Made by a program: the position numbers and the translations under genes. Positions 15,845 to 30,965 of a stretch of DNA of 64,000 bases are shown piece by piece; position 1 is the stretch's first letter, and each line of letters begins with the position of its first letter. This DNA comes from Treponema sp. Marseille-Q4130 (GTDB lineage: Bacteria > Spirochaetota > Spirochaetia > Treponematales > Treponemataceae), in contig NZ_JACSET010000008.1 of NCBI RefSeq assembly GCF_014334325.1, positions 62,001 through 126,000 on the forward strand, given 5' to 3'. The notes under the pieces are model-generated. The model made no database searches, had not been told where the DNA came from, and saw only the letters and a list, made by a program, of their open reading frames with translations.

Positions 15845-17605
15845 CTATCGCGTGAGCTTTCTGTACACAACCCTGCGCGGCACTTCGACGTCGTCTCCGA
15901 ACTGGGCTTTCCGCCATGCCGCGTACTCCGACCAGTTGCCTTCGAAAAAGCGTACTTGGCTGTTGTTTTCAAAGGCGAGTATGTGTGTGCAGATTCTGTC
16001 CAAAAACCAGCGGTCGTGGCTGACGACGAGCGCACATCCGGCAAAGTCTTCGAGGGCTTCTTCGAGCGCGCGCACCGTCTGCACATCCAAGTCGTTCGTC
16101 GGTTCGTCGAGCATTAAAACGTTACCCGCTTCTTTGAGCATCATGCCGAGATTCAGCCGATTTTTTTCGCCGCCGGAAAGTACGCCGATCTTTTTATTCT
16201 GTTCCGCGCCGGAAAAATTGAACCACGAACAATAGGCATGCGCGTTCACTTCGCGCACTCCGCCTTCAAGCGCTCTGCCTTTTTCATCGACCGCGCCGAG
16301 CTTGATGATATCCTGTCCGCCGGAAAGCAGTTCGTACACCGTTTTGTCGGGATCGAGCTTCGAGCGGAGCTGATCGACGTAAACCAATTTTACCGTCGAG
16401 CCGATTTTGATTTCACCGGAATCCGGTTTTTCTCCGCCCTCTTTGCCGTCGAGCCGTTCGGCAGTTTGACCGGCCGCATCGGCGATCAATTTGAACAGCG
16501 TCGTCTTTCCCGCGCCGTTCGGTCCTACGATGCCCACGATCGCGCCCGCCGGAATATGAAACGAAAGATTTTCGAACAGGAGTTTGTCGCCGTACGATTT
16601 TGTTAAATTTTCCGCATCGATGACCGCCCCTCCGAGCCTGGGACCTGCGGGAATCGAAATCTGCGTGTCTTTGAGCGCGGTTTTGCCGCTTTGCGAAAGC
16701 AGTTCGTTGTAGCGCGTAATGTGTTCTTTGTGTTTCGCCTGCCTGCCTTTCGCACCCATGTGGATCCACTCGAGTTCGCGCTGCATCGCTTTTCGCCGTT
16801 CGCTTTCGCCCTTTTCTTCCAGCGCAAGGCGCGCTTCTTTTTGTTCAAGCCAGCTCGAATAATTGCCTTTAAACGGATAACCTTCGCCGCGGTCGAGTTC
16901 CAAAATCCAACCGGCCACATCGTCGAGAAAATAACGGTCGTGCGTGATCGCGATAACCGTACCCTCGTAATCGTTCAAATGCTTTTCAAGCCACGCGACC
17001 GTTTCCGCGTCCAAGTGGTTCGTCGGTTCGTCGAGCAAAAGGATATCGGGCTTTTGCAAAAGCAGCCGGCACAGCGCAACGCGCCTGCGCTCACCGCCGG
17101 AAAGCACATCGACGATTTGATCTCCCGGCGGACAACGCAGCGCTTCCATCGCGAGCTCCAAATTCGCATCGAGATTCCACGCGTCGAGCGCGTCGAGTTT
17201 TTCCTGCAGCTCCGCCTGCCGCGCGCCGAGTTTGTCGAAATCCGCGTCGGGATCTCCGAACGCTTCGTTTACTTTATCGAATTCCGCAAGGAGGTCGGTA
17301 ATCTCTTTGACACCTTCGCCGACGATCTCTTTGACCGTTTTCCCCGATTCGAGTTCCGGCTCCTGTTCGAGATAGCCGATCGAATAGCCCGGCGCGAGAT
17401 GCGTTTCGCCCGTAAACTCCGTATCGCGTCCCGCAAGTATTTTAAACAGGCTCGATTTGCCCGATCCGTTCGGCCCGATGACGCCGATCTTTGCACCGTA
17501 ATAATACGAAATGCCGATATTTTTCAAAACGACTTTTGTGCCGTACGCGCGGCTCACATCGTCCATCGTGTAGATGATTTTTTTATTGTCAACCGTCTTT
17601 GCCAT
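15845..17605 (-). CDS. ettA: Energy-dependent translational throttle protein (ABC-F ATPase)
   Basis: Ribosome-binding ABC-F ATPase of 586 residues with two nucleotide-binding domains joined by a P-site tRNA interaction linker (ERRKAMQRELEWIHMGAKGRQAKHKEH). Walker A GPNGSGKSS and GPNGAGKTT, signatures LSGGERRRV and LSGGEKNRL, and Walker B LLLDEPTNHLD and LMLDEPTNDLD are all intact. It gates the 70S ribosome according to energy state. Two extra loops occur in the second domain relative to E. coli EttA: AERLDGKEGGEKPD, and a stretch around DEKGRALEGGVREV. ATG 17605 is preferred over GTG 17611 because a -10 box lies six bases upstream. Codons 1-31 and the promoter are duplicated at 20580-20672. 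Confidence 0.94.
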   Translation of the reverse strand: MAKTVDNKKIIYTMDDVSRAYGTKVVLKNIGISYYYGAKIGVIGPNGSGKSSLFKILAGRDTEFTGETHLAPGYSIGYLEQEPELESGKTVKEIVGEGVKEITDLLAEFDKVNEAFGDPDADFDKLGARQAELQEKLDALDAWNLDANLELAMEALRCPPGDQIVDVLSGGERRRVALCRLLLQKPDILLLDEPTNHLDAETVAWLEKHLNDYEGTVIAITHDRYFLDDVAGWILELDRGEGYPFKGNYSSWLEQKEARLALEEKGESERRKAMQRELEWIHMGAKGRQAKHKEHITRYNELLSQSGKTALKDTQISIPAGPRLGGAVIDAENLTKSYGDKLLFENLSFHIPAGAIVGIVGPNGAGKTTLFKLIADAAGQTAERLDGKEGGEKPDSGEIKIGSTVKLVYVDQLRSKLDPDKTVYELLSGGQDIIKLGAVDEKGRALEGGVREVNAHAYCSWFNFSGAEQNKKIGVLSGGEKNRLNLGMMLKEAGNVLMLDEPTNDLDVQTVRALEEALEDFAGCALVVSHDRWFLDRICTHILAFENNSQVRFFEGNWSEYAAWRKAQFGDDVEVPRRVVYRKLTR

Positions 17606-17872
17606 ACGCACATCATATCTGAAAAAATCGAATACTGCAAGTTTTCGATTTGGATTTCCCGGTTATTAAAATTTAATAATATCGATTGGTAAATTATTAA
17701 TATATTTTGCCGCCCGCATTTTCCGTATCGTCTGTTCGGGTGTTTATTAATTTTTAGGGCGTGCCCCTCACTCCGCTCGGGTCGGGCTTTGCGGGGTTCC
17801 GCGCTCGCGCGCTTCATTCCTCCGCTCGCTCATCGCTCGCTCCGGAACTTTCGCCCCTCCAATCCCTCACGC
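17513..17872. repeat. 360-bp direct repeat, copy A
   Basis: Identical to 20580-20939 at 354 of 360 positions by eye with no indels (constant offset 3067). It contains ettA codons 31 to 1, the ettA promoter and about 230 bases of non-coding DNA, ending in a GC-rich dispersed element (about 17755-17872). Together with copy B it brackets the restriction-modification genes, as expected for insertion with a long target duplication. Confidence 0.93.
17612..17640 (-). promoter_or_regulatory. Leaderless promoter of ettA
   Basis: Minus strand TTGCAG (17635-17640), 17 bases, TATGAT (17612-17617), six bases GTGCGT, then ATG 17605. Present unchanged in the duplicate at 20679-20707, where it would fire antisense toward the methylase genes. 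Confidence 0.7.
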
Positions 17873-18027
17873 GCCCCTCTCTTACGCTCTATGTTTCTAT
17901 AAAAAAACGCTTTTAAATCCGCGTAAAAAATGCATTTGCACACGATATATAGGCGGGCTGCAAAGTGCCGTGTGGAAGAGCGCGTGATGCATGCGTTTCC
18001 GCGCGGTATGCGGCTTTGAGGTGCAGT

Positions 18028-18178
18028 ATGAAAAAATCGACGCTTTTCCTTGCGCTGTTTGTATTGTTCGTATGCGGCTGTGCGGGAAAAAAAATCCGAC
18101 GAATATGCAACGCTTAAAAATTCCGGCTTAACGGAAGACGCGCTGTATGGAAACGTAAAATATTTTATGGTACAATAA
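18028..18178 (+). pseudogene. Frameshifted lipoprotein remnant
   Basis: ATG 18028 with GAGG upstream opens a clean lipoprotein signal, MKKSTLFLALFVLFVCGC, then a run of eight A causes a shift; the reading frame stops after IRRICNA. In the other frame the protein continues as KKSDEYATLKNSGLTEDALYG and ends FMVQ at 18178. It is truncated where the methylase promoter begins (TACAAT 18171-18176 is part of its last codons). It lies inside the inserted segment and was probably broken before or during that event. Confidence 0.6.
18171..18176 (+). promoter_or_regulatory. Leaderless -10 box of the methylase gene
   Basis: TACAAT followed by six bases (AAACGT) and ATG 18183. No clear -35 and no RBS. 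Confidence 0.5.
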
Positions 18179-18182
18179 ACGT

Positions 18183-19061
18183 ATGGATTATATGACTGTA
18201 AAACCGTTCATAAAATGGGCGGGAGGGAAAAGCCAGTTATTAACTGAAATTCGAACAAAATATCCGGCAAAGATTGAAAAATATTGTGAGCCGTTTCTCG
18301 GCGGTGGTGCGGTTTTGTTTGATATTCTCGCAAATTTTCATCCCGATGAAGTTCTTGTAAACGATATAAACAAAGAACTTATAAATGTTTATAAACAAAT
18401 TAAAACGAATTGCGATGATTTAATAAAAAATCTCCTAGAATTGCAAAAAGATTATTGGAACAATGGAAACGATGAAAGAAAAAAAATATATTTAAATAAA
18501 AGGAAAAAATTTAACGATTTAAAATCGAACGGCGGAAATTCGGAAAAAGCGGCTTTATTTATTTTTCTCAATAAAACCTGTTTTAACGGCTTATACCGCG
18601 TAAATTCGAAAGGTTTATTTAACGTTCCGATGGGAGCATATAAACGCCCTCCGATCTGCGATGTAGAAAATCTTCGTCGTTGTGAAAAATTATTGAAAAA
18701 AGTAAAAATTATTTGCGGTGATTTTTCCTCAACGGTAGATTTTATCGATTCGAAAACTTTCGTCTATTTGGATCCTCCTTACCGCCCAATTTCCCCCACG
18801 TCTTCGTTTACGGCATATTCGGAATTTGTTTTTACCGATCGGGAGCAGATAAAACTCGGTACCTTTGTTGATGAAATTACAAAAAAAGGCGCTAAGATAG
18901 TTTTAAGCAATTCCGATCCGAAGAATACGAATAAGAACGATAATTTTTTTGATGACTTGTATAAAAAATACAATATCGTCCGCATTGAGGCAAATCGTAT
19001 GATAAACAGCAAAGCGTCGGCTCGCGATTCGATAAATGAATTATTAATTTGTAATTTTTAA
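18183..19061 (+). CDS. D12-class DNA adenine N6-methyltransferase (DpnM-like, GATC type)
   Basis: Restriction-modification methylase of 292 residues. The SAM-binding motif EPFLGGGAV (36-44) and catalytic DPPY (197-200) are in the alpha-class order. The conserved FNGLYRVNSKGLFNVPMG block is shared with DpnM and Dam, which methylate A in GATC. N-terminal VKPFIKWAGGKSQLL is typical. It is the first of three tightly spaced genes. Codon use is AT-rich with many Lys, Asn and Ile, unlike the flanking genes, which supports transfer. GATC specificity is inferred from family and from the second methylase. Confidence 0.9.
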   Translation: MDYMTVKPFIKWAGGKSQLLTEIRTKYPAKIEKYCEPFLGGGAVLFDILANFHPDEVLVNDINKELINVYKQIKTNCDDLIKNLLELQKDYWNNGNDERKKIYLNKRKKFNDLKSNGGNSEKAALFIFLNKTCFNGLYRVNSKGLFNVPMGAYKRPPICDVENLRRCEKLLKKVKIICGDFSSTVDFIDSKTFVYLDPPYRPISPTSSFTAYSEFVFTDREQIKLGTFVDEITKKGAKIVLSNSDPKNTNKNDNFFDDLYKKYNIVRIEANRMINSKASARDSINELLICNF

Positions 19062-19080
19062 AAATTTTTACAGGAGTAAT

Positions 19081-19617
19081 ATGATAAAGGGCGGAAAAGG
19101 CGGAGGAAACACGAGGACAGGTTTGGTTTTTGAAGGAAAGGTCGATCTTTCAACGTTTCTTTCAAAGCAGCCGGGATATAAAATCAACAATGGTAATGTT
19201 TTTTACAGAGGTGAAAAAGTAGCGCGTATTTTTAAAAAACATACGTTTTATGAATTCTTAAACGAAATCGGAATTGACTGGAAAGCGATAATTTCAAAAA
19301 AATTATTACCCGATGACAGTATCTATGTAATTATAAATAATACTCTTTTCATCATCGAGTGCAAACATCAACAAGTTGCCGGATCGGTAGATGAAAAATT
19401 ACAGACATGTGATTTTAAGAAAAAACAATATCAACGACTTATGGCGCCGGCAAATATTGAAGTGGAATATATGTACTTGCTCGATAATTGGTTTAGGGCT
19501 CCCAAATATAAAGACGTTTTGGATTATATAATTAGCGTCGGCTGTCAATATTACTTCGAATACATTCCTTTGACAAAAATCGGATTACCAGTTCCGCCGG
19601 AATTAATAACCGATTAG
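19081..19617 (+). CDS. Putative type II restriction endonuclease, PD-(D/E)XK fold
   Basis: 178 residues. Contains P77-D78...E93-C94-K95 (LLPDDSIYVIINNTLFIIECK), a good PD-X14-EXK active site for metal-dependent DNA cleavage, and an N-terminal glycine-rich GGKGGGNTRTG. It is much shorter than DpnII or MboI (about 280-290) and I see no resemblance to them, so it is probably a different endonuclease lineage attached to GATC-type methylases. RBS AGGAG precedes ATG 19081. It lies between the two methylase genes, with four bases to the next. It is AT-rich like them. Specificity is unproven. Confidence 0.75.
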   Translation: MIKGGKGGGNTRTGLVFEGKVDLSTFLSKQPGYKINNGNVFYRGEKVARIFKKHTFYEFLNEIGIDWKAIISKKLLPDDSIYVIINNTLFIIECKHQQVAGSVDEKLQTCDFKKKQYQRLMAPANIEVEYMYLLDNWFRAPKYKDVLDYIISVGCQYYFEYIPLTKIGLPVPPELITD

Positions 19618-19621
19618 TGAT

Positions 19622-20506
19622 ATGGTGCAATCGTATTATAGATCCCGAAACCGCGATTTTACCCTCTTGCAAGGTGATTGCATTGAATTATTAACGCAAT
19701 TCGATTTTCAATTTGATATGATTTTTGCCGATCCTCCTTATTTTTTATCGAACGGTGGTATTTCCGTACAGAGTGGAAAACAAGTCAGTGTAAACAAAGG
19801 TGATTGGGATAAATCGCAAGGCTTTGTGAAAGATAATAAGTTTAATTTTGATTGGATTTCGCTGTGCCGCGATAAATTAAAAGAGGACGGTACGATTTGG
19901 GTTTCGGGTACTTATCATAATATTTTTTCCGTTGCACAAATGCTTACCGAATTGGGTTTCCGGATATTAAATTGTATAACGTGGGCAAAAACGAATCCTC
20001 CGCCGAATCTTTCCTGTAAGTTTTTCACGCATTCTACGGAATTTATTTTATGGGCGCGAAAAAATAAAAAAATCACTCATTATTATAATTATGAACTTAT
20101 GAAGGAGATCAACGGCGGGACACAGATGAGGGATTTATGGATTTTACCTGCAATTGCAAAATGGGAAAAATCTTGCGGTAAGCACCCGACGCAAAAATCG
20201 CTTCCGCTGCTTGCACGAATAATTCTCTCTTCGACGAAAGAGTGGGCATGGATTCTCGATCCGTTTACCGGTTCAAGTACAACAGGGATTGCAGCGAGTT
20301 TATTAAATCGTCGGTTTCTTGGTATAGATAGAGAGAAAGATTTTCTGGAAATTTCAAAAAATAGAAGAGAAGAAATTGAAGATGTAAAAATCCGAGAAGA
20401 GTACAGAACACGAATCAGTAAATATTCGAATAAGTCAATAAAAAAATTGCTTGAAATACAAAATCGGGAACCGTATTTTGGACCGGATTTACCCATATAT
20501 CAATAA
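19622..20506 (+). CDS. DNA adenine methyltransferase, beta class (DpnA-like)
   Basis: 294 residues. Catalytic DPPY at 37-40 precedes the SAM motif DPFTGSSTTG (213-222), the beta-class order. FADPPYFLSNGGISV, VNKGDWDKS, TWAKTNPPPNLSC and KHPTQKSLPLL match the DpnA family closely; DpnA can methylate single-stranded GATC and protects incoming DNA during transformation. Pairing of DpnM- and DpnA-type enzymes marks this as a DpnII-like system. The C-terminus carries an extra basic tail (about 245-294). No clear RBS; translational coupling to the endonuclease is likely. Confidence 0.88.
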   Translation: MVQSYYRSRNRDFTLLQGDCIELLTQFDFQFDMIFADPPYFLSNGGISVQSGKQVSVNKGDWDKSQGFVKDNKFNFDWISLCRDKLKEDGTIWVSGTYHNIFSVAQMLTELGFRILNCITWAKTNPPPNLSCKFFTHSTEFILWARKNKKITHYYNYELMKEINGGTQMRDLWILPAIAKWEKSCGKHPTQKSLPLLARIILSSTKEWAWILDPFTGSSTTGIAASLLNRRFLGIDREKDFLEISKNRREEIEDVKIREEYRTRISKYSNKSIKKLLEIQNREPYFGPDLPIYQ

Positions 20507-20561
20507 TACCGATATAGCGCATTGTGTTGTTAAATCTTCTTTCTTCTCATAAAATTTCATA

Positions 20562-20672
20562 TTAAAACCGACCGAATTCGCCGATATTTTTCAAAACGAC
20601 TTTTGTGCCGTACGCGCGGCTCACATCGTCCATCGTGTAGATGATTTTTTTATTGTCAACCGTCTTTGCCAT
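20562..20672 (-). pseudogene. Duplicated 5' fragment of ettA
   Basis: Carries ettA codons 1-31 with the intact promoter, then leaves homology at 20580 and ends after five foreign codons (EFGRF) at TAA 20562-20564. The 36-codon product would be only the first strand of an ABC domain, so it is taken as debris of the target duplication. Its promoter points toward the 3' ends of the methylase genes. Confidence 0.85.
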
Positions 20673-20939
20673 ACGCACATCATATCTGAAAAAATCGAAT
20701 ACTGCAAGTTTTCGATTCGCATTTCCCGATTATTAAAATTTAATAATATCGATTGATAAATTATTAATGTATTTTGCCGCCCGCATTTTCCGTATCGTCT
20801 GTTCGGGTGTTTATTAATTTTTAGGGCGTGCCCCTCACTCCGCTCGGGTCGGGCTTTGCGGGGTTCCGCGCTCGCGCGCTCCATTCCTCCGCTCGCTCAT
20901 CGCTCGCTCCGGAACTTTCGCCCCTCCAATCCCTCACGC
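20580..20939. repeat. 360-bp direct repeat, copy B
   Basis: Second copy of 17513-17872, six mismatches. Its left end abuts the tail of the restriction-modification insert and its right end continues into the flank of the DUF454 operon. The near identity suggests a recent event or ongoing homogenisation. Confidence 0.93.
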
Positions 20940-21020
20940 ACGGGGAGCGAAGGCGCTTTTGCTTTCCGCCGAATGTTTCAAAAACGCTGTCGGTCTTTGT
21001 TCGCTGCGTTTCGTTTATGT

Positions 21021-21461
21021 TTAAACGGCTTTACCGCTTTCCGAATCTTGTGCCGTATCGATGTCGCGGCATTGATGCGGCTCTTCGTTATGCAGCGTTT
21101 TTACGCCGAACAAAAAGTAGACGATGTGGCATATCCACACGACGGCGAGACAAATTCTGCCGACGGGCACCCGCTTCATCATGATAAAGCCTGCAAGCAT
21201 CACCGCGCTCGACGTCGCAAGAATCGAGATCTTCGTTTTTATCGTCATCGCTTTTCGTTCGACAAAACTTTCCAGATTTTCTTTGTACAGCGTCGTACCG
21301 GTAAACCAATCGTGCAGCTTTTTCGAACTCTTGGCGAAACAGAACACGGTTGCCAAATAAAACGGCACGGTCGGAAGCAGGGGCAGTATGATGCCGACGG
21401 TACCTAATCCCAGCGAGATAAAACCGAGTATTATCCACAAGATGCGAATCGGATTTTTCAT
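21021..21461 (-). CDS. DUF454 (YbaN-family) inner-membrane protein
   Basis: 146 residues with about four hydrophobic helices. The N-terminus RILWIILGFISLGLGTVGIILPLLPTVPFYLATVFCFAKSS, in parts, matches the DUF454 family: a conserved GxxGxxLPLLPTxPF loop, then SSKKLHDWF. The function of the family is unknown; it is often near haem, Fe-S or respiration genes. It is the last gene of a four-gene minus-strand operon. Its ATG overlaps the stop of the ABC gene by four bases, so it is translationally coupled to the transporter. Confidence 0.85.
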   Translation of the reverse strand: MKNPIRILWIILGFISLGLGTVGIILPLLPTVPFYLATVFCFAKSSKKLHDWFTGTTLYKENLESFVERKAMTIKTKISILATSSAVMLAGFIMMKRVPVGRICLAVVWICHIVYFLFGVKTLHNEEPHQCRDIDTAQDSESGKAV

Positions 21462-23209
21462 TTTGATTCCTTTTCCATTTCAAAAACGGTATGTGCGATA
21501 TTCAGCGTCGACATTCGATGCGATACGATGACGACGGTTTTTCGTTTTGATTTTTCGTTGAGCGATTTCAAAATGATGCCTTCGTTCAGCGAATCGAGAT
21601 TGCTCGTCGGTTCGTCCAAAAGTACGATCGGCGCATCGTGCAAAAAGGCGCGGGCAAGTCCTATGCGCTGCCGCTCTCCTCCGGACAGCGTGCTGCCCAG
21701 TTCGCCGACTTCCGTATCGTATCCGTCGGGGAGCGAAGAGACGAATTCGTCGAGCGACGCTTTTTTTGCCGCATCGATTATTTCTTCGCGTGTCGCGTCG
21801 ATTTTGCCGATCGCGATATTGTTCGCAATCGTGTCGCGAAAGAGGGACGTTTCCTGCGTCACGTAGGATTCCGCAGCTCGGAGGGATGCCGTATCGATCG
21901 TTCGTATGTCTTTTTTCGAAAGCGAAATGCTTCCCGACTGCACGTCCCAAAAGCGCATGAGCAATTTTAAAAGCGTCGATTTGCCGCAGCCGGACGGCCC
22001 ATGGATGCCGAAAATCTTCCGGCCGGGAATCGCGAGCGAAAAATTCGTCAGGATGTTTTCCGCGCCGTAGGAAAAATCGGCGTTTGCAATATCGATGCCG
22101 TTTACGGCAAAAGCTTTTTCGGCGTTTGAAACGGAGATACCCTTTGCAGAAAACGTTTTTGCGGCTGCGTCGGCATCGGCAGTTTCGCTTGTTACTTCTT
22201 CGACGATCGGCTTTTCATCGAGCAGAGAGAGGACTCTTTCTCCGCTTGCAAGCGTCTGCATCAAATTGTTCGAGAGATTCGACAGCGCGACGACCGGCCC
22301 GAACGAACTCATTACGGCGACGGTCGTTACGACGGCATTTCCGAGTGAAACGCTGCCGGCAAAAAAAGAGCGGAGTACGAGACAAAAAACCGCGGCGTCA
22401 AATGCGAGGATGACGATATTGGTAAGGGCGCGCTGATACGATTCGAGCGTCGAAAGTTTTTTTTGCATATGCGTCAATTCCTGCGAGCGCTTTTCCAATT
22501 CCGACAGGCGCTTTTTGCCGCAGCCGTATTGTATCGTTTCGTCGAGGCCGCGAAGCGAATCGAGCACGAAGGCGCTCAAATTTCCGAACGCGTTTCGAAA
22601 CTTGAGACCCTCCGCACCTCCGAGCTTTGCGTTTGCGAGCGGGATGACGGCGCCGACCGTTATATACGCACATAAAGCGATGATACCGGCCGCGGCGCTT
22701 CCGTGCCATATAAAGACGGTCATGCACGCCGACACGATGAGCGCGATCGCGACCGGAGAAATCGTGTGCGCGTAAAAGACTTCGAGCAGTTCGATGTCCG
22801 ATGTTATTATCGAAATGAGATTGCCTTTGTCTCTGCCTTCGAGCTTTGCAGGGCAGAGTTCGCGGAGCTTTGCAAAGATACGGTGTCTAATGAGCGCGAG
22901 CAGTTTAAAAGCGATAAAGTGATTGCAGTACTGTTCCGCGTAATGGAAGACGCCGCGGCACACGGCGAACGCGATCAAAAAGTACGGCAAGATCCGAAGC
23001 GGCAGCAAGGGTGCGCTTTGAGCTGCGATGCCTGCGATTCCCGAAGCCGCCGATACCGTTACGGCGATTGCGCACAAGTGTCCGATGCTGCCGAAAAAAA
23101 TCGCGAGCAGCATGACGGGGATGAGCGTCCGTACGAGGATGATGAGGCGTGCCATAATCGAAAATACGTTTTTTCTTTCGGCTTTTCGCTGCGCTGTGTT
23201 GCACTTCAT
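21458..23209 (-). CDS. ABC half-transporter, second subunit (CydC-like/type IV fold)
   Basis: 583 residues: about six membrane helices (residues 20-310) and a C-terminal ATPase with Walker A GPSGCGKST, signature LSGGERQR and Walker B IVLLDEPTSNLD. Coupled by ATGA overlaps to the partner upstream and the DUF454 gene downstream, so it surely forms a heterodimer with the 578-residue subunit. Relatives export thiols or haem-linked compounds (CydDC) or import siderophores (YbtPQ, IrtAB). Because the divergent operon encodes a TonB receptor and no periplasmic binding protein is present, the import option is attractive, but this is inference. Confidence 0.88.
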   Translation of the reverse strand: MKCNTAQRKAERKNVFSIMARLIILVRTLIPVMLLAIFFGSIGHLCAIAVTVSAASGIAGIAAQSAPLLPLRILPYFLIAFAVCRGVFHYAEQYCNHFIAFKLLALIRHRIFAKLRELCPAKLEGRDKGNLISIITSDIELLEVFYAHTISPVAIALIVSACMTVFIWHGSAAAGIIALCAYITVGAVIPLANAKLGGAEGLKFRNAFGNLSAFVLDSLRGLDETIQYGCGKKRLSELEKRSQELTHMQKKLSTLESYQRALTNIVILAFDAAVFCLVLRSFFAGSVSLGNAVVTTVAVMSSFGPVVALSNLSNNLMQTLASGERVLSLLDEKPIVEEVTSETADADAAAKTFSAKGISVSNAEKAFAVNGIDIANADFSYGAENILTNFSLAIPGRKIFGIHGPSGCGKSTLLKLLMRFWDVQSGSISLSKKDIRTIDTASLRAAESYVTQETSLFRDTIANNIAIGKIDATREEIIDAAKKASLDEFVSSLPDGYDTEVGELGSTLSGGERQRIGLARAFLHDAPIVLLDEPTSNLDSLNEGIILKSLNEKSKRKTVVIVSHRMSTLNIAHTVFEMEKESK

Positions 23210-24942
23210 CGTTTTGCCTCCGCCGCATAGGTTTCGAGTTTATGCTGTGCGTTGTACATTGCCGCATAGTTCCCTTTCAGTTTTATCAATTCGTCATGCG
23301 TACCCGATTCAATAACATGTCCGCCGTCGAGCATGTATATGCGCGCGGCGTCGGAAACGTTCGACAGCTTGTGCGAAATCACGATGACGGTTTTCTTTTT
23401 TGCCAAAGCGTTGACGACGTCCATGATCATCGCTTCGCTTTCGGCATCGACGTTCGATGTCGCTTCGTCGAATATATAGACGGCACTGTCGTGGAGCAAT
23501 GCGCGGGCGAGTGCGAGACGTTGCCGCTGACCACCCGACAGATTGCCGCCCTTTTCCGAAAGTTCCGTTTTAAGCCCGTTTTGCGTTTGCAAAAAATCCC
23601 ACAAATTGACTTTTTGCAGAGCGCGCTGCATATCTTTTTCCGATGCACTTGCATTTCCCATGCGCAGATTGTATTCGACCGTTCCTTTGAAAATATAGCT
23701 TTCGTGCGTGACGAGCGTCGCCGCGCTCATGACGGCATCTTCGCGTATCGAAGAGAGTTCGGTTTTATTAAAACGGATGCTGCCCGAATAACCTTTGTTG
23801 CGCGTCATGATAAGAGATGCTATCGTACTTTTTCCCGAGCCCGATTTTCCGACGATTGCCGTGAGCGACTTCGGTTTGCACGAGAGCGACATGTTTTTCA
23901 ATACAGTCCGCTCGGGCGAATACGAAAACGAAACGCCGGAAAATTCTACGGCGACGGAAGAACCGGAAAGGACTGCGGCACGTTCGTCTTCTTCCGGCAG
24001 ATCGAGCAGGGTAAAAATTTTGTCCGAGGCTGCCATGCCGTTCATCGCGACGTGAAAAAAAGAACCGAGGAGGCGGAGCGGAATAAAAAATTCCGCGGCG
24101 AGCAGTACGATCATGAGGCAGCCGCCGAGCGTAACTTCTCCGCGTGCGAATTCGGCGAGCGCAATGATCATGCCGATTGCCGCTCCGCCGTACGCCATAA
24201 TGTCCATAACGCTCGTACTGTTCAACTGCATGGAAAGCACTTTCATCGTAATCCGTCTGAAGTTTTCGGCTTCCCTGTCCATTTCGGCCGCTTTTTGTTC
24301 ATCGGCGCGGTAGATTTTTAAAGTGGTCAGTCCCTGCAAATTTTCCAAAAAGCCGTCGCCGAGCTTTGCATAGAGCGCCCAGTATTTTCGCAAAAGGAAT
24401 TTTGCGATCTTCATAATGAGTACGATCGAAAGCGGAATGAGCGGTACGCACAAAAGCAGGACGGCGCTTGCCTTTACGCTGACAAAAGATAAAACCGCAA
24501 AGAGCGTTAAGGGCGCAAGCAAACTGTAGCCGAACTGCGAAAGGTATTTTCCGAAATAGATTTCAAGCTGTTCGACGCCGTCGGAAGCGAGCTGTACGAT
24601 TTCCGCAGTCGGCGCGGAACTCCGATATGAGGCACCCAAGCGCAAAAGTTTTTCGTACATATGCTTTCGAAGCGTTATTTTAACGTCGGCGCTCGCTTTG
24701 TAAGATGCGGCGACGTAGAAGCGGTCGGATACGAATCGGACGGCAAAGTAGCACAGCGCTGCCCCTGCGTACAGCGGGGCGAGAGGGGCGATCGGCTCAT
24801 GAACGAATAGTTTCTGCACGATATCGCTTATAAAAAAGACGATTGCTATTTGGCAGAGCAGCGAAATCCATTGGCAGAGCACTTGCAAAAAAACGAATTT
24901 TTTTGCGTGCGACAGCAATCGTATCAATCGAATTTTAATCAT
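23206..24942 (-). CDS. ABC half-transporter, first subunit (CydD-like/type IV fold)
   Basis: 578 residues with six membrane helices and an ATPase domain: Walker A GKSGSGKST, signature LSGGQRQR, Walker B VYIFDEATSNVD. The loop LQGLTTLKIYRADE and ENFRRITMKVL are typical of the CydD-like branch. It overlaps ygbA by eight bases and its partner by four. Substrate unknown: candidates are a siderophore or haem (imported after TonB-dependent uptake) or an exported thiol or haem compound. Confidence 0.88.
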   Translation of the reverse strand: MIKIRLIRLLSHAKKFVFLQVLCQWISLLCQIAIVFFISDIVQKLFVHEPIAPLAPLYAGAALCYFAVRFVSDRFYVAASYKASADVKITLRKHMYEKLLRLGASYRSSAPTAEIVQLASDGVEQLEIYFGKYLSQFGYSLLAPLTLFAVLSFVSVKASAVLLLCVPLIPLSIVLIMKIAKFLLRKYWALYAKLGDGFLENLQGLTTLKIYRADEQKAAEMDREAENFRRITMKVLSMQLNSTSVMDIMAYGGAAIGMIIALAEFARGEVTLGGCLMIVLLAAEFFIPLRLLGSFFHVAMNGMAASDKIFTLLDLPEEDERAAVLSGSSVAVEFSGVSFSYSPERTVLKNMSLSCKPKSLTAIVGKSGSGKSTIASLIMTRNKGYSGSIRFNKTELSSIREDAVMSAATLVTHESYIFKGTVEYNLRMGNASASEKDMQRALQKVNLWDFLQTQNGLKTELSEKGGNLSGGQRQRLALARALLHDSAVYIFDEATSNVDAESEAMIMDVVNALAKKKTVIVISHKLSNVSDAARIYMLDGGHVIESGTHDELIKLKGNYAAMYNAQHKLETYAAEAKR

Positions 24943-25270
24943 GCGTTTTTCCTGTTTGCATGCCGACGATTATGTGCTTTATGACAAGGATCGGGTGATA
25001 TAAAAATATCCGCGGTCCCGAAAACCGCATAACCGTTTTGATTTTATTTCTCTTTTCCTGCGAATAACAGTGCGCTTTGCATGCGGAGCAAAATGTCTTT
25101 TCCCTCATAAACGGACACTTGTCGATCTTTCCGACCGCGTACTCATACAGCGCGCCGCACTCGGAACACAGGGTATTCTTTCTGCCGTGCTTTTTCCTGC
25201 AATACAGCCGTATCATTTCTCCGATGATTTTCTTTTCGTGCGCCGTTTTTGTTTCGGTGGAGTTACCCAT
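24935..25270 (-). CDS. YgbA-family (nitrous oxide-stimulated promoter family) protein
   Basis: 111 residues, cysteine-rich. It matches the YgbA family pattern: EMIRLYCRKKH, LCSECGALYEYA, KCPF, FCSACKAHCY, and the closing block VMRFSGPRIFLYHPILVIKH. The cysteine pairs suggest a metal or Fe-S site. In enterobacteria ygbA belongs to the nitric-oxide (NsrR) regulon; its biochemical role remains poorly defined. Here it leads an operon with two ABC subunits and a DUF454 protein, divergent from a Fur-like/TonB operon. The transcript is predicted to be leaderless. Confidence 0.85.
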   Translation of the reverse strand: MGNSTETKTAHEKKIIGEMIRLYCRKKHGRKNTLCSECGALYEYAVGKIDKCPFMREKTFCSACKAHCYSQEKRNKIKTVMRFSGPRIFLYHPILVIKHIIVGMQTGKTHD

Positions 25271-25278
25271 TGCTAACG

Positions 25279-25307
25279 ATACTAGCGGATAAACTTTTCC
25301 GCGTCAA
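25279..25307 (-). promoter_or_regulatory. Leaderless promoter of the ygbA-ABC operon
   Basis: Minus strand TTGACG (25302-25307), 17 bases, TAGTAT (25279-25284), eight bases, ATG 25270. It lies back to back with the Fur-like promoter, about 10 bases between the two -35 boxes. Confidence 0.7.
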
Positions 25308-25315
25308 TCAATCTC

Positions 25316-25344
25316 TTGACATATCCCGATTTAAATAATAGCAT
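25316..25344 (+). promoter_or_regulatory. Promoter of the Fur-like/exbBD/tonB operon
   Basis: TTGACA (25316-25321), 17 bases, TAGCAT (25339-25344). The predicted start is near 25351, inside the dyad region that follows. Confidence 0.7.
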
Positions 25345-25346
25345 AG

Positions 25347-25373
25347 GATAACAATAGTTAGTTATAGACAACT
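25347..25373. promoter_or_regulatory. Overlapping dyads, probable metalloregulator operator
   Basis: ATAAC-N8-GTTAT (25347-25364 region) overlaps AGTTA-N8-CAACT (25356-25373), a one-mismatch version of the AGTTA-N8-TAACT dyad at 27538 and 38679. It covers the expected transcription start of the Fur-like operon. Confidence 0.5.
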
Positions 25374-25409
25374 CCTGAAAATCTACACGATTTTTTGGAG
25401 ATTCTCGAT

Positions 25410-25430
25410 ATGTTTTTGAAACTGCTATGA
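25410..25430 (+). CDS. Possible six-residue leader peptide
   Basis: ATG 25410 is preceded by GGAG (25397-25400) at good spacing and encodes MFLKLL, with TGA overlapping the ATG of the Fur-like gene (ATGA). The Fur-like start itself has no RBS, so translation could be coupled to this mini-ORF. Speculative; coding cannot be proved at this length. Confidence 0.3.
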   Translation: MFLKLL

Positions 25431-25699
25431 AATATCTATTTAAAGAAATACTTGCATCTTTCAGAGAACACGGAATGCGTGTTACAAGTCAGCGCAAACG
25501 GCTCGTTTCGATTATATTGCAGAATCCCGATTTATCACCGAAAGAAATTTTTTACATCGCACAGAAAAAAGACAGTTCGATCGGGCGGGCAACCGTATAT
25601 CGGCTCATTCGTTTGCTTCAGGAACTCGGCTATATCGGGCGTCACTATATTAAAATCGTGCCGAACCGAAACGCTCCGGCTGCTTCGTTTCCGACGTAG
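25427..25699 (+). CDS. Fur-like regulator, DNA-binding domain only
   Basis: 90 residues. The N-terminal winged helix of the Fur family is clear: MRVTSQRKRLVSIIL, PKEIFYIAQKK and the recognition region SIGRATVYRLIRLLQELGYIG. Normal Fur proteins have about 140-150 residues; the C-terminal dimerisation and metal-binding domain (HHDH/CxxC) is missing and the protein ends NAPAASFPT. No frameshifted continuation was found in the next 55 bases. It could bind DNA as a shortened regulator, or be a decaying gene. First gene of the exbB-exbD-tonB operon. Confidence 0.72.
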   Translation: MKYLFKEILASFREHGMRVTSQRKRLVSIILQNPDLSPKEIFYIAQKKDSSIGRATVYRLIRLLQELGYIGRHYIKIVPNRNAPAASFPT

Positions 25700-25754
25700 A
25701 GTCTTCTTAAGTGAATGTGAATACATGCAACGATAAGGAAAATCGGGTGTCGTT

Positions 25755-26294
25755 ATGAGATTGATCGAATTTATTAATTTGGGCGGGCCTATCAACTGGG
25801 TGCTTGCCGTAATTTTGTGTTTTTGTTTTTGCCAATGTCTCGAACGCGGCATATATTTTTTCCAAACGCGCAAAGGTTCGAAAAACGACGTAGTGAAGCG
25901 CCTGCAGGAAAAGACGTCCGCCGTTGCCGCATTGCCGGAGGGGCAGCGCCGTACGGAACTTGTCAAAGAAAGTACGCTTTTGTATTACGAAATGAACCGC
26001 GGGCTGTGGCTGCTCAATTTTATCAGCGCGGTCTCGCCTTCGATAGGGCTGCTCGGCACGGTTACCGGTCTTATCGGCTCGTTTTCCAAGATGGCGGAAG
26101 TGGGCGCAGCGGTGAATATTCAGGATTTGTCCGGCGGCATTTGGGAAGCGATGCTCACGACGGCGTTCGGCATGATCATTTCAATACCGGCGCTCCTGTG
26201 CTACCGCACGTTCAAGCGTATCATCGAAAAACGCATGATGTTTATGCAGCTGTACGGCGAAGAAACCGAGCGGAAAGCATCGGGAGGCAAATAA
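25755..26294 (+). CDS. exbB: ExbB/TolQ-family proton channel
   Basis: 179 residues with three membrane helices: an N-terminal one (about 12-32), and two near the C-terminus flanking the conserved LLGTVTGLIGSF and LTTAFGMIISIPALLCY blocks. Forms the pentameric motor with ExbD that energises TonB by the proton gradient at the inner membrane. Ends in TAATG overlap with exbD. Context identifies it as ExbB rather than TolQ or MotA. Confidence 0.92.
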   Translation: MRLIEFINLGGPINWVLAVILCFCFCQCLERGIYFFQTRKGSKNDVVKRLQEKTSAVAALPEGQRRTELVKESTLLYYEMNRGLWLLNFISAVSPSIGLLGTVTGLIGSFSKMAEVGAAVNIQDLSGGIWEAMLTTAFGMIISIPALLCYRTFKRIIEKRMMFMQLYGEETERKASGGK

Positions 26295-26698
26295 TGTTCG
26301 GCCCCGATGCTTTTTCCCGCTATGACGAAGAGCTTGTCGTAAACATAACGTCGCTCATCGACGTCATCTTTATTTTGCTCATTTTTTTTATGGTGTCGAC
26401 CCAATTCAAAAGGAGCTCTTTGCCGCTCGACTTGCCGAGAAGCGAAGACGCGACGCAGGAGCGCAATACGACGAAGGTGCTCGCCGTTACCGCCGACAGA
26501 ATGGAATTGGACGGCGACAGTATAACGCTTGAAGCGCTCGAGGATACGCTTTCATCTCTGTATGCGCGGGAACCGGAGCTTGCGCTTTCGCTCGAATGCG
26601 AACGGACGGTCGAGTTCGAACGGATCGTGCAGATATTGACAAAGGTGCAGGCCGCGGGGATCAGCCGCATAGGTATCGTGCATGAGCCGCTGGATTAG
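26294..26698 (+). CDS. exbD: ExbD/TolR-family protein
   Basis: 134 residues: short cytoplasmic N-terminus, one membrane helix with the essential aspartate in NITSLIDVIFILLIFFMVSTQF, then a periplasmic domain ending in a TolR-like fold (KVQAAGISRIGIVHEP). Start ATG 26294 overlaps the exbB stop by one base; a much longer upstream reading frame overlapping exbB is rejected. The 3' end overlaps tonB by 17 bases. Confidence 0.92.
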   Translation: MFGPDAFSRYDEELVVNITSLIDVIFILLIFFMVSTQFKRSSLPLDLPRSEDATQERNTTKVLAVTADRMELDGDSITLEALEDTLSSLYAREPELALSLECERTVEFERIVQILTKVQAAGISRIGIVHEPLD

Positions 26699-27365
26699 CT
26701 CCGCTCTGTGTACGCTCGCAATCGTTGCAGTGCTGTTTTGCCTGCCCTTTTGGGGTATACGGAGCGCTTCGTCGTCTCAAGCGTCGATCGTGTCGGATAC
26801 GACGGTGTCGAACGTGCGTATCGTGCAGCGTGCGGCAAAAAAAGCGCCGGCAGCCGTGCACAATAAAAGCGTTCCCGCAGTTCCGGCAACGCCGGTCGAA
26901 ACGATCCCTTCTTCGAAGATAGAAACACCTGCCGAAGAACTCGAGCAAACCGAAGAGCCCGCTGCGGAAGCGACCGAAGCGACCGATGAAAGCTCGTCGG
27001 CGGATGCGAACGAAACTACGGCAAGCGATGCGGCGGATACGGGCGGCACAGTCGATTCGTTTTCTCATACGCAGGGAGCGAAAGCGGCAGCAACGTATAA
27101 ATCCTATGTGCTCGGGCGTATCGCATCGAAAAAAACATACCCCTACGCCGCCCGTTCAAGCGGCTTGGAGGGGAAAGTGCGCGCACGGATCGTCATCAAT
27201 CCCGACGGAACGCTTGCCGAAGCTGTCATCCTCGAACCGTCGGAATACGACGTTTTGAACAACGCGTGTCTCGCCGCGATAAACAAATCCGCCCCGTTCA
27301 GAAAAATGACGAGCGGAGCAAGCGCAATGACGCTTTCGTTTGTCATGGATTTTTCGCTGCACTGA
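26682..27365 (+). CDS. tonB: TonB energy-transducing protein
   Basis: 227 residues: N-terminal membrane anchor (about 4-27), a long periplasmic spacer rich in Glu, Ala and Thr (about 65-125, acidic in place of the usual Pro/Lys repeats), then a TonB C-terminal domain (about 135-227) with YPYAARSSGLEGKVRARIVINPDG and APFRKM, in parts. It links ExbBD to the receptor plug across the periplasm. The acidic spacer is unusual. It begins within exbD. Confidence 0.9.
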   Translation: MSRWISSALCTLAIVAVLFCLPFWGIRSASSSQASIVSDTTVSNVRIVQRAAKKAPAAVHNKSVPAVPATPVETIPSSKIETPAEELEQTEEPAAEATEATDESSSADANETTASDAADTGGTVDSFSHTQGAKAAATYKSYVLGRIASKKTYPYAARSSGLEGKVRARIVINPDGTLAEAVILEPSEYDVLNNACLAAINKSAPFRKMTSGASAMTLSFVMDFSLH

Positions 27366-27372
27366 GCGCAGC

Positions 27373-27411
27373 GAACGGCGCGAGTCGGCGAACGGCGCGA
27401 GTCGGCGAACG
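27373..27411 (+). repeat. 17-bp tandem repeat after tonB
   Basis: GAACGGCGCGAGTCGGC occurs twice in a row and begins a third time (GAACGACG). Located just after the tonB stop codon. No known function. Confidence 0.8.
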
Positions 27412-27505
27412 ACGTTTTCGCCGAAAGCGTGGTTGTGTCGGCGGCGGTTTCAATCGGTCGCGTTTCGGTTTTGTTGATATTTTTTCTCAATAAAGCGGAA
27501 TTGTA

Positions 27506-27534
27506 TTGCATGAAACGTAAAAATCCTTTACATA
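27506..27534 (+). promoter_or_regulatory. Promoter of the TonB-dependent receptor gene
   Basis: TTGCAT (27506-27511), 17 bases, TACATA (27529-27534). Predicted start about 27541, inside the dyad that follows. Confidence 0.55.
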
Positions 27535-27536
27535 GT

Positions 27537-27556
27537 AAGTTAGCATAAACTAACTA
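27537..27556. promoter_or_regulatory. Dyad AGTTAG-N6-CTAACT, probable iron/metal operator
   Basis: AAGTTAGCATAA plus ACTAACT forms a near-perfect inverted repeat directly at the predicted start site of the receptor gene. The 12-base core AAGTTAGCATAA recurs exactly (opposite strand) at 38686-38697 upstream of the ZIP and RND genes. Confidence 0.65.
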
Positions 27557-27572
27557 AAATCGGGGTAAACCT

Positions 27573-29612
27573 TTGAAGCGATATATTTTTTTCCATATTG
27601 CGATTGCGATTTTTTCGGCATCGCTTTTATGTTCGCAGGAAGCGGAAGACGATGTCATCGTCGTCGATGCGGAAAAGATCGAACAGACTATGGACGATGC
27701 CGTCGAACAAAAAAAAGTGATCACAACCGATGATATACGGAAGTCCGGATCGAAAACCGTCGGCGACGCTTTGAAAACGCTGCCCGATGTTACGGTGAGC
27801 GCGGCGACGGCGGGCAATGCGAACGAATCCGTCACTATGCAGGGACTCGGCAACGGCTACGTCAAAATCATGATAGACGGCGTGAGCGTTTCGACGGACA
27901 TATCCGGATCTACGCCGATATTTCAGATCCCCGTCGAAAACATCGAACGCATCGAAGTCATCAAGGGTGCGGATTCCGTTTTGTACGGAAGCGATGCGAT
28001 GGGCGGCGTCATCAATATCATAACTAAACGCGAGCAGACGGCGGATGAAAAAGAGACGGCGGACAGTTCGAAAAAAAACGATCTGAAAATGTCGGGCAGC
28101 GTTACCCATGAAATCGGCTTTATGCCGCTCGTACTCGGCTGGAAAAATTATATCGCCGGAAATTTTTCCGTTTCGGGAAAGCATATTTCGAATACGTTGA
28201 TCGGCAGTTTTGATTATAATCCCGGTAGAGAAAAAAAGACGGAAGACGCTCTTGCCGGAAAAATCAGCTATTATAAAGGTACGCGGAAAATACTCGGCTT
28301 TGTGCGGGATACGCTTACATGGAACGATGTGTGGGGTTCAATCGGAGCATACGGAGTGTACAGCGGTTCGCACCAGATAAGCAATTATACGAAGACGGGA
28401 TTCGACAAAGGCACAGATATGATTTACACCGCGCACCGCGGCGAATTCGGTTTTACGGGAAAATATATTTGGAACGACAAACTGTATGCCGACGGCTTCC
28501 TTACGGGGAAACTGTATTTTATGGATACCGTTTACAACGTAAAGGCCGGCATCCACTCTTCTTCAACCGGAACGCATTCGAATTCTTTTGATGCCGAACA
28601 CGATGTGCGCCTTCACTGGAAACCGAATACGATCAACGATATCACGCTGGGCGCAAATATCGACTTGGAATCCATGTCGGGTACCTTGCTCGACAATCGC
28701 AAATACGCCTTGGAAACTGCGCTCTTTGCGCAGGACAGCATTGCGCTTTTCGATAAAAAACTCACGCTCGTGCCCGGCGTCCGCTTCGATGTTTCGCCGA
28801 GCGTTCAGGGGAGCGGCGCCCTCTTTATGGCGACGCCGAAGTTCGGCATAAAATACAATCCGAGTGAAAAAACGGCGCTCCGCTTCAGTTACGGCATGGG
28901 CTATAAAATCCCTACGCTGAAAGAAAAATATTGGATTTTCAAACACAGCTATGCGCCAGGAGCCGGAAACTTTATCCTCTACGGAAATCGGAATCTTCTG
29001 CCTGAAACGTCGCACAGCTTCAATATCGGAGTCGAGCAAAACGTAAAAAATCTTTTTAAAGTTTCCGCAGGCGGCTATTTCAACTATATACAGAACCTCA
29101 TAGACAGCGTCGTTATAGACGGCGTTTCTTCCCCGCAAATACGCGAATACCGAAACGTGGATACGGCAGTAACCTACGGCGGCGATATTTCCGTAAGTTC
29201 CGAAATGGACAGGTTTACCGTAAAAACCGGCTACGCATACACCGGAGCGAAATTTTTCGACAAAGAAAGCAGCGGCTGGGAAGACCTCGCGCTCCGCGTC
29301 GCGCATAGAGTGACCGCGTACGTCGCATACCGTATCCCCGTCATAGAAACGACGGCCGCTTTGAACCTGCAGTGGAATTCGCCGCAGCTTTTGACCGCAA
29401 AAAGCGGCTACTATACGCCCGATTACTTTATGGTCGGCTTCGACGTTTCGAAAAAGTTTTTGGATGAAAAACTTGAAGTGTACGCGGGTTTGGATAATAT
29501 GCTGAACAACGTCCACTTTATAAAAGGAAGCAATAACGAAACGCAGGAGTATTATTACGGACTCGCCGAAGGGATCGGACTGCGTGTCGGCGGGAGATAT
29601 AAATTCAATTAA
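27573..29612 (+). CDS. TonB-dependent outer-membrane receptor
   Basis: 679 residues: signal peptide (about 1-21), an N-terminal plug (about 50-155) with ITTDDIRKSGSKTVGDALKTLPDV, IMIDGVSV, and IERIEVIKGADSVLYGSDAMGGVINI in parts, then a 22-strand type barrel ending in a terminal aromatic (YKFN). It moves a scarce ligand such as haem, siderophore, cobalamin or metal chelate across the outer membrane using TonB. A TonB box may be DDVIVVDA near residue 27. Has its own promoter and dyad. No haem-receptor FRAP/NPNL motif was seen, so the ligand is open. Confidence 0.93.
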   Translation: MKRYIFFHIAIAIFSASLLCSQEAEDDVIVVDAEKIEQTMDDAVEQKKVITTDDIRKSGSKTVGDALKTLPDVTVSAATAGNANESVTMQGLGNGYVKIMIDGVSVSTDISGSTPIFQIPVENIERIEVIKGADSVLYGSDAMGGVINIITKREQTADEKETADSSKKNDLKMSGSVTHEIGFMPLVLGWKNYIAGNFSVSGKHISNTLIGSFDYNPGREKKTEDALAGKISYYKGTRKILGFVRDTLTWNDVWGSIGAYGVYSGSHQISNYTKTGFDKGTDMIYTAHRGEFGFTGKYIWNDKLYADGFLTGKLYFMDTVYNVKAGIHSSSTGTHSNSFDAEHDVRLHWKPNTINDITLGANIDLESMSGTLLDNRKYALETALFAQDSIALFDKKLTLVPGVRFDVSPSVQGSGALFMATPKFGIKYNPSEKTALRFSYGMGYKIPTLKEKYWIFKHSYAPGAGNFILYGNRNLLPETSHSFNIGVEQNVKNLFKVSAGGYFNYIQNLIDSVVIDGVSSPQIREYRNVDTAVTYGGDISVSSEMDRFTVKTGYAYTGAKFFDKESSGWEDLALRVAHRVTAYVAYRIPVIETTAALNLQWNSPQLLTAKSGYYTPDYFMVGFDVSKKFLDEKLEVYAGLDNMLNNVHFIKGSNNETQEYYYGLAEGIGLRVGGRYKFN

Positions 29613-29631
29613 ATTGGTTTATAGGTATGTT

Positions 29632-30609
29632 ATGAAAAAACGACTATACGGATTTTTTGCCGCGGCGGCGCTCGCTTCTTCTTTGCTCTGCGTTTCCTGT
29701 GACGCGATTGCGGACGCTTTTAAAGATGAAACGCTTGAACCTGTCGATATTTCCGAACTCTACGGTTACACGTATTACGGAAGCATTACGCCTTCGGGCG
29801 GTACCACGCTCAAGCCTGCGCTCACGATTTATAACAGCGATCGGCTCGATTGGAATATGAGCGTCAACGGCATGACCAACAATCAATTCTATTATTATTC
29901 GGTAAAAAATTCCAAAAACAATTATACGCTGTATTGGTTTGGCGGCGCGGATTCCGTTGCGGCAATGGCGAAGGACGCTTCAAAAGCCGCGATGACGGTT
30001 CAAATCGGCATAAACAGTACGGACGGGATCACCATTTTGCTTACGGGCGACGGGCTTACAGGCATAGGCGCGATGTCGAATACGCGCGTTCCCATGTCAC
30101 GTCAGGTGATGCTCGGCCGTGCGGAAAGAGTACCCGATATTGCATTCGATCCGAGCATTCAGGACGTAACGATTGAAATTCCGAGCGATGCTGCTGCGGC
30201 CGATTGGGGAGGGTCTGCTTCATATACGGGAACATTCGACTATTTGGTCGGACCGGGAGGAAGCACAGCGAGAGGACACGGAAGCTGCGGCGCCGGAATC
30301 GAACCGAAAATTACTCTTACGTCGGACGGAACTCACACGGTAAAGCTCGGTATGCACCGCTTTATCAATGGGTCAGGTATGACGATCGAAGCTTATGATA
30401 TTCCCGGCGTACGCGTGTCTGAAAAAGACGGTGTATATTATCTGAAGCGCGATCCGGCCGGTGTTCCTGCAAATATAGGTGGTGTATCTAAAACATTAAA
30501 CGATCTGACGGTTTGCGGAAAACTTGAAGGCGGCAAATTGACGCTGCGCGTCGAATTTAAGCCGGGCAGGATGCCGTTTCCGATTATTGAGATATTTACA
30601 GGCAATTAA
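29632..30609 (+). CDS. Lipoprotein downstream of the TonB receptor
   Basis: 325 residues with a lipoprotein signal (MKKRLYGFFAAAALASSLLCVSC; Cys23 probably lipidated, Cys20 possible). The mature part is rich in Gly, Thr and beta-type sequence, with YGYTYYGSITPSG and a C-terminal strand region (LEGGKLTLRVEFKPG). Family not recognised. It starts 19 bases after the receptor, so is almost surely cotranscribed and may be a surface partner that captures the ligand, like HmuY-type proteins. That role is inferred from position only. ATG 29632 was chosen for the signal peptide and an AGGT upstream. Confidence 0.82.
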   Translation: MKKRLYGFFAAAALASSLLCVSCDAIADAFKDETLEPVDISELYGYTYYGSITPSGGTTLKPALTIYNSDRLDWNMSVNGMTNNQFYYYSVKNSKNNYTLYWFGGADSVAAMAKDASKAAMTVQIGINSTDGITILLTGDGLTGIGAMSNTRVPMSRQVMLGRAERVPDIAFDPSIQDVTIEIPSDAAAADWGGSASYTGTFDYLVGPGGSTARGHGSCGAGIEPKITLTSDGTHTVKLGMHRFINGSGMTIEAYDIPGVRVSEKDGVYYLKRDPAGVPANIGGVSKTLNDLTVCGKLEGGKLTLRVEFKPGRMPFPIIEIFTGN

Positions 30610-30735: not shown

Positions 30736-30910
30736 ATCGGAGACACTCGCGATTTCTGTGCATTGCTCGAAATCGCAGCGTTCTTATCTCGAGTTTGCTC
30801 GGATGTTTGCAGAAGACGTGTATACGTGGCGTTTCGATAAAAATCGCATGAATACGATACGCTTTATTTTGCAAACTCGACTATTGAATATGTGCGCACA
30901 CGCGCACGGC

Positions 30911-30953
30911 TAAAAACTTTTTCGAAAGTTGCAACTTTCTGCAAAAGTTTTTA
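30911..30953 (+). promoter_or_regulatory. Long near-perfect palindrome upstream of a lipoprotein RBS
   Basis: TAAAAACTTTT (30911-30921) pairs fully with AAAAGTTTTTA (30943-30953); the interior GAAAGTTGCAACTTTC (30924-30939) is itself a perfect palindrome. The RBS AGGAGG follows at 30955-30960. The RNA hairpin would sit right against the RBS, and could control stability or translation. Confidence 0.65.
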
Positions 30954-30965
30954 TAGGAGGTTTTT

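Follow-up and report, generated by a model that had tools for sequence, protein, structure and literature searches.

Nobusato et al. in 2000 and Furuta et al. in 2010 reportedly described restriction-modification genes that had inserted with long duplications of their target. A second point of reference is the DpnII system, with the gene order dpnM-dpnA-dpnB, next to which stands the MboI order, M-R-M. Passages in two papers mention long and variable target duplications, together with linked rearrangements, for restriction-modification genes (PMC3031569, PMC3874152). Here we analyze a 64,000-nucleotide stretch of Treponema sp. Marseille-Q4130 (the window: NCBI RefSeq assembly GCF_014334325.1, contig NZ_JACSET010000008.1, positions 62,001 to 126,000 of the forward strand), in which a restriction-modification module lies between two direct copies, A and B, of a 360-base-pair (bp) segment that carries the start of ettA. 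A preliminary description had read the arrangement as insertion of the module with a 360-bp target duplication. Acquisition of an adenine-thymine-rich (AT-rich) module with a duplicated piece of ettA beyond it holds up, but a plain 360-bp duplication at a site joining ettA to a DUF454 gene is rejected. We favor, with a probability of roughly 0.7, an explanation in which the module entered a native lipoprotein gene after ettA and the right side was replaced, then or simultaneously, by joining to the DUF454 locus at a dispersed 129-bp repeat, here called rep129.

The direct repeat and its dispersed part

The repeat copies and the rep129 within each are as follows.

17513..17872, no strand: copy A; ettA codons 1-31 (counted from the ATG), upstream DNA, and rep129
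17744..17872, no strand: rep129 at the ettA locus (positions 232-360 of the 360-bp query)
20580..20939, no strand: copy B; duplicated ettA start with its upstream DNA (231 bp), followed by rep129
20811..20939, no strand: rep129 before DUF454; 128 of 129 bases identical to copy A

Alignment bore out the repeat as it had been described: two direct copies of 360 bp at an offset of 3067, with six substitutions (at 17651, 17653, 17662, 17689, 17702, and 17814) and no indels, a similarity far beyond chance. The first 31 codons of intact ettA, counted from the ATG, are indeed contained in copy A. At either end, the homology between the copies breaks off abruptly. In the genome that contains the window (G000; 2.79 Mb in 18 contigs), A and B are the sole full-length copies, and six further places match the query in its right part only (within positions 241-360), with 77-93% identity. 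We searched 146 genomes of the genus, scoring four candidates in each, and obtained near-full-length matches in G108, G120, and G133 besides G000. These three close relatives have the full 360 bases once each, always at ettA. A full listing of their rep129 copies, drawn from 17, 14, and 18 scored candidates, respectively, showed that only one per genome sits within a full 360-bp copy.

Matches to rep129, many of them partial, number 8 in G000, 4 in G108, 6 in G120, and 7 in G133. G108, G120, and G133 have rep129 behind the ettA start as well as directly before DUF454, and DUF454 is preceded by its own rep129 in all five genomes examined (these three, G049, and G109). The preliminary description had named membership in a multicopy family at unrelated loci as an argument against its reading; this applies to the right 129 bp, which are dispersed and occupy both loci in module-free relatives, but not to the 231-bp ettA start, which in these relatives occurs at ettA only. 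The comparison indicates that the 360-bp repeat is a composite of 231 bp of duplicated ettA start and a 129-bp repeat present at both loci in the relatives, and that the newly duplicated part is the 231 bp of ettA only.

We considered two identities for rep129 and rejected both. It is not a known RNA family, as a comparison with Rfam across 17400-21100 gave no match up to an expect value (E) of 0.5, and it is not an unusually stable DNA fold (z score of +1.4, weaker than shuffles). Another dispersed repeat family, present many times in each genome, is found close to the ends of blocks; it is represented at 30786-31051 of the window and near 2557974-2558204 of G120, where it falls between rep129 and the lipoprotein gene.

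The left edge of the acquired DNA

The features on the left side of the module are given below.

15845..17611, minus strand: intact ettA; start ATG at 17605 or GTG at 17611 (TIGR03719, 855 bits versus a cutoff of 807)
17873..18149, plus strand: native ettA-side spacer and lipoprotein gene start, interrupted by the module (from side-by-side comparison with relatives)
18150..20579, plus strand: acquired module DNA; bounded on the left at about 18150, with an uncertainty of a few bases, and on the right by copy B

In G120 and G133, the ettA-type rep129 is followed by a matching spacer and then by the start of a lipoprotein gene, as is copy A in G000, and the identity over 17946-18153 is 94.7% to G120 and 93.3% to G133. 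Both relatives carry one extra dispersed repeat between the ettA-type rep129 and the lipoprotein start, which G000 lacks. The homology stops at about 18149, where the lipoprotein reading runs on in the relatives and is truncated in G000. The broken lipoprotein gene noted earlier is a gene start cut off by the module; "lipoprotein" is read from the sequence itself, as are the gene kinds given for the DUF454 block beyond DUF454 itself, for the neighbors called X and Z below, and for the neighbor in G108. In G108, different DNA directly follows the ettA-type rep129. Copy A and 17873-18149 together form one native block, and the acquired DNA therefore extends from about 18150 to 20579, within the lipoprotein gene. 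The 2707 bases between the copies, previously taken as the insert, include native DNA at 17873-18149; the left edge lies at about 18149/18150 and not at 17872/17873.

The only other match to the lipoprotein gene in G000 is a 76% version on contig C12. There, this diverged gene and the next 9 kb (L089; C12:30548-40000) stand behind a rep129-like copy. G108 also has a lipoprotein version of the L089 type, 93% alike, and no rep129 was detected at that place.

The right-hand join to the DUF454 locus

To the right of copy B, the window contains the following.

20940..30609, no strand: DUF454 block, native to another locus in relatives (G120 2713125-2723299, 81-88% identity)
21021-21461: DUF454 gene

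The DNA to the right of copy B corresponds to the DNA upstream of DUF454 in the relatives, from the end of rep129 onward. Within copy B, rep129 is where homology to the DUF454 locus begins and where that to the ettA locus runs out, and the join coincides with the repeat. The rep129 of copy B groups with the ettA type (support of 0.90). Its final 16 bases are identical between the ettA and DUF454 types, and the switch to DUF454-side DNA falls there.

In all three close relatives, ettA and DUF454 are on separate loci, and the empty ettA-360-DUF454 site with one copy of the repeat that had been predicted was not found. Among the matches listed for 200 genomes of the genus, the ettA-360-DUF454 join occurs in G000 alone; with about two candidates scored in each, a distant instance may have escaped detection. 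G049 and G109 have rep129 followed by DUF454; the separation of the two loci was read in the three close relatives, in which ettA was placed. Because the ettA-DUF454 order exists in none of the three relatives, recombination between A and B would not restore the ancestral locus. The precise loss by this path that the preliminary description proposed is to be amended accordingly, as ettA would be left beside DUF454.

The DNA to the left of the rep129 of DUF454 is of four kinds in six genomes: G108 and G133 have X there, G120 has Z, G049 and G109 share another sequence (99% alike), and G000 has the ettA fragment. X with a rep129 behind it lies at 50 kb in G120, and DUF454 lies at 2.72 Mb. Given the four neighbors of DUF454 and the other DNA that comes right after the ettA-type rep129 in G108, altered joins at or near rep129 are not confined to G000 and are seen in G108 and G120.

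The restriction-modification module and its nuclease

Four features lie between the left edge and copy B.

18183..19061, plus strand: M1, Dam/DpnM-type adenine methyltransferase (PF02086, TIGR00571; closest solved chain DpnM, 2dpm)
19081..19617, plus strand: 178-amino-acid PD-(D/E)XK nuclease, presumed restriction enzyme (PF20472, 28.7 bits versus a cutoff of 23.7)
19622..20506, plus strand: M2, CcrM/DpnA-type methyltransferase (PF01555; closest solved chain CcrM, 6pbd, then DpnA, 5hek)
20507..20579, no strand: AT-rich spacer from M2 to copy B, with no counterpart found in other modules

The guanine-plus-cytosine content of the module in 500-base windows is 0.32-0.39, versus 0.45-0.60 in surrounding windows. 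The module is an AT-rich, Type II-like restriction-modification system (M1, nuclease, and M2) that was acquired here. From family membership, it is predicted to restrict unmodified DNA. GATC occurs 283 times in the window versus 352 expected, a weak hint toward GATC as the recognition sequence.

The system had been called DpnII-like, a label that does not fit its nuclease. PF20472, the only match of the nuclease, is matched by all seven members of the nuclease family alignment. The DpnII endonuclease family (PF04556) has no match in the protein or in the whole G000 genome, and we reject it as the identity of the enzyme. Searches of NCBIfam and PADLOC gave no match to the nuclease, and the solved structures included none that was convincing (best E of 0.046 with the single protein and 0.096 with the alignment, to the same chain). 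The phage records gave no match, and the plasmid records gave two, both from Neisseria gonorrhoeae and without annotation. One Neisseria gonorrhoeae record filed as a plasmid (L220; NZ_CP119140.1) is 2.17 Mb long and encodes a 53% relative of the nuclease.

Inverted repeats bounding the module were also considered and rejected, as the longest inverted word common to its ends is 8 bases. No homology was seen at the 20579/20580 edge.

Related modules in other genomes

The nuclease is present in 7 of the 274 genomes of the family, G000 included. The gene has no match in G120 or G133, and G108 is outside the seven positive genomes. Excluding the window, we assembled 86 related loci: 80 kept of 554 genome_contigs stretches, among them stretches from Clostridia, Campylobacter, Helicobacter, and Capnocytophaga, and 6 from the family. 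An M1-type gene is nearby in 72 of the 86 loci, M2 only in 13, and neither in one. Among the 72 loci with M1, 17 also have M2 and 16 also have a DpnII-family endonuclease, an identity confirmed by profile for two loci. In those two Treponema loci, the DpnII-family endonuclease (L086 7831-8694 and L087 7985-8845; PF04556, E of 2.5e-106 and 1.6e-109) lies between M1 and the 178-amino-acid nuclease. The presence of the small nuclease beside DpnII in L086 and L087 suggests that it may be an accessory or a second enzyme. L086 also contains a short Mrr-type nuclease fragment at 6989-7345 (PF04471, E of 3.3e-10).

None of the six other modules from the family is flanked by local repeats; two of them (L083 and L088) are at a contig end, so four can be judged. 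In a wider survey, 68 of the 86 loci had at least 1 kb on each side. A loose rule found a flanking direct repeat in five of these loci, and a tight rule (at least 100 bp, at least 85% identity, within 1.5 kb) found one in a single locus, versus 2 of 1080 control placements, the two sharing a locus. One case under the tight rule proves nothing, and we reject flanking repeats as a general trait of the module. In a Clostridia genome, a 219-bp direct repeat with 95% identity (L151 6544-6762 and 9607-9825) brackets M1, the nuclease, and a further gene. Parts of it recur nearby, and it looks like a dispersed element.

Discussion

Comparison at the sequence level establishes four points: copy A is followed by a native lipoprotein start, ettA and DUF454 occupy separate loci in the relatives, both loci carry rep129, and the join lies at the rep129 end. 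A two-event route could have led to this arrangement. First, insertion of the module would have duplicated about 637 bp of the target (17513-18149). The rep129 of copy B would then have recombined with the rep129 before DUF454, an exchange that would have put the DUF454 locus in place of the tail of copy B and shortened copy B to 360 bp. We regard this route as the most likely one at somewhat less than even odds, with the order of its events inferred; a long duplication of about 637 bp as the first step, with later trimming of copy B, is possible.

Several points weigh against the favored explanation. Counted over the 360 bases, A differs from B at 6 positions, A from G108 at 18, and B from G108 at 16. 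A and B are 1.7% apart, versus 4.4-5.0% to G108, which means that the duplication is not recent or that another strain supplied one of the copies. In both A and B, rep129 is a mosaic in which a stretch near the left resembles the DUF454 type; its presence in both copies implies that the element was mixed before. In G120, a 49-bp piece of X, 90% identical, persists 28 bp from the rep129 of DUF454, and this remnant implies that the change of neighbor there was not a clean exchange at rep129. The reciprocal product was not found in G000, where X (C10:103241-103939) has neither rep129 nor the lipoprotein gene behind it, so further loss must be assumed. The genomes are also much rearranged, as contig C17 has only eleven blocks of at least 400 bp that align to 265 kb of G120, and breaks may fall at rep129 by chance. 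Finally, the comparison included one strain of the species.

The main rival, homology-assisted insertion, is an unlikely but not negligible alternative. Homology-facilitated illegitimate recombination is described in competent bacteria (PMC3240628). A donor piece or circle with the ettA start, rep129, the lipoprotein start, and the module would have recombined by homology on one side, at ettA, and been joined on the other, at codon 31 of ettA, with no homology involved; the recipient would already have had the order ettA-rep129-DUF454. Copy A would then be the donor's and copy B the recipient's, and in such a recipient one step yields the observed order. At the six sites where A and B differ, G108, G120, and G133 side with B at four (17653, 17662, 17689, and 17814) and with A at one (17702); they are divided at 17651, and one of the three has a third letter at 17689. 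This pattern counts for the rival, but four versus one is no significant excess. Moreover, this rival requires a recipient arrangement seen nowhere else among the matches listed and a donor that already held the module in the lipoprotein gene, at least three events in all.

The lack of homology at the 20579/20580 edge would fit repair with template switching. Here, the module would have entered the lipoprotein gene without duplication, and later a broken end to the right of the module would have copied 231 bp of ettA and rep129 and switched to the rep129 of DUF454. A single complex event would cover both the ettA fragment and the join, but it has left no direct trace, and the closeness of the copied piece to the locus of the module would have to be put down to chance or to a sister-chromosome effect. 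We consider this scenario improbable.

An assembly error that misplaced the right flanks of A and B is conceivable in a draft genome of 18 contigs with a 98% repeat. It is very improbable, as the six differences help to keep the copies apart and A matches G120 and G133 on either flank. The model of a single 2707-bp insertion into an ettA-360-DUF454 site with a 360-bp duplication, which would explain the direct copies and their sharp ends and for which there is precedent among restriction-modification genes in passages of PMC3031569 and PMC3874152, is largely refuted and scarcely credible, since its insert is partly native ettA-side DNA, rep129 was already at both loci, and no empty site was found.

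A bolder reading can also be imagined. In this reading, rep129 would be a true recombination hotspot of this Treponema group at which blocks are rejoined repeatedly, adjacent insertions of restriction-modification genes would trigger reshuffling via breaks, and the 178-amino-acid nuclease would represent an uncharacterized restriction enzyme family that travels with Dam-type methyltransferases. Taken jointly, these proposals are a long shot.

The case bears on how such loci are read. A long direct repeat around restriction genes can pass for a plain target duplication if it is partly a dispersed repeat that preexisted at both loci. The window provides a further example of a restriction-modification module located at a rearranged junction. 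It also draws attention to a small nuclease family that is widespread next to Dam-type methyltransferases and carries no specific name in the libraries searched.

Set beside known systems, the case is ordinary in kind and more complex than the earlier reading. It resembles insertions of restriction-modification genes with long target duplications in having a module between long direct chromosomal copies and a link to rearrangement, but here the copies are composite, 277 bp separate copy A from the start of the acquired DNA, and a matching empty site is not known. What it shares with exchange between dispersed repeats is a join at a repeat that both partner loci carry in G108, G120, and G133; unlike in a simple exchange, the reciprocal product is missing, and the module and an ettA fragment are at the join. 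Finally, the module shares with DpnII-type systems the grouping of DpnM-type and CcrM/DpnA-type methyltransferases in one gene group, but it differs from them in that its nuclease lies between the methyltransferases and belongs to PF20472 rather than PF04556.

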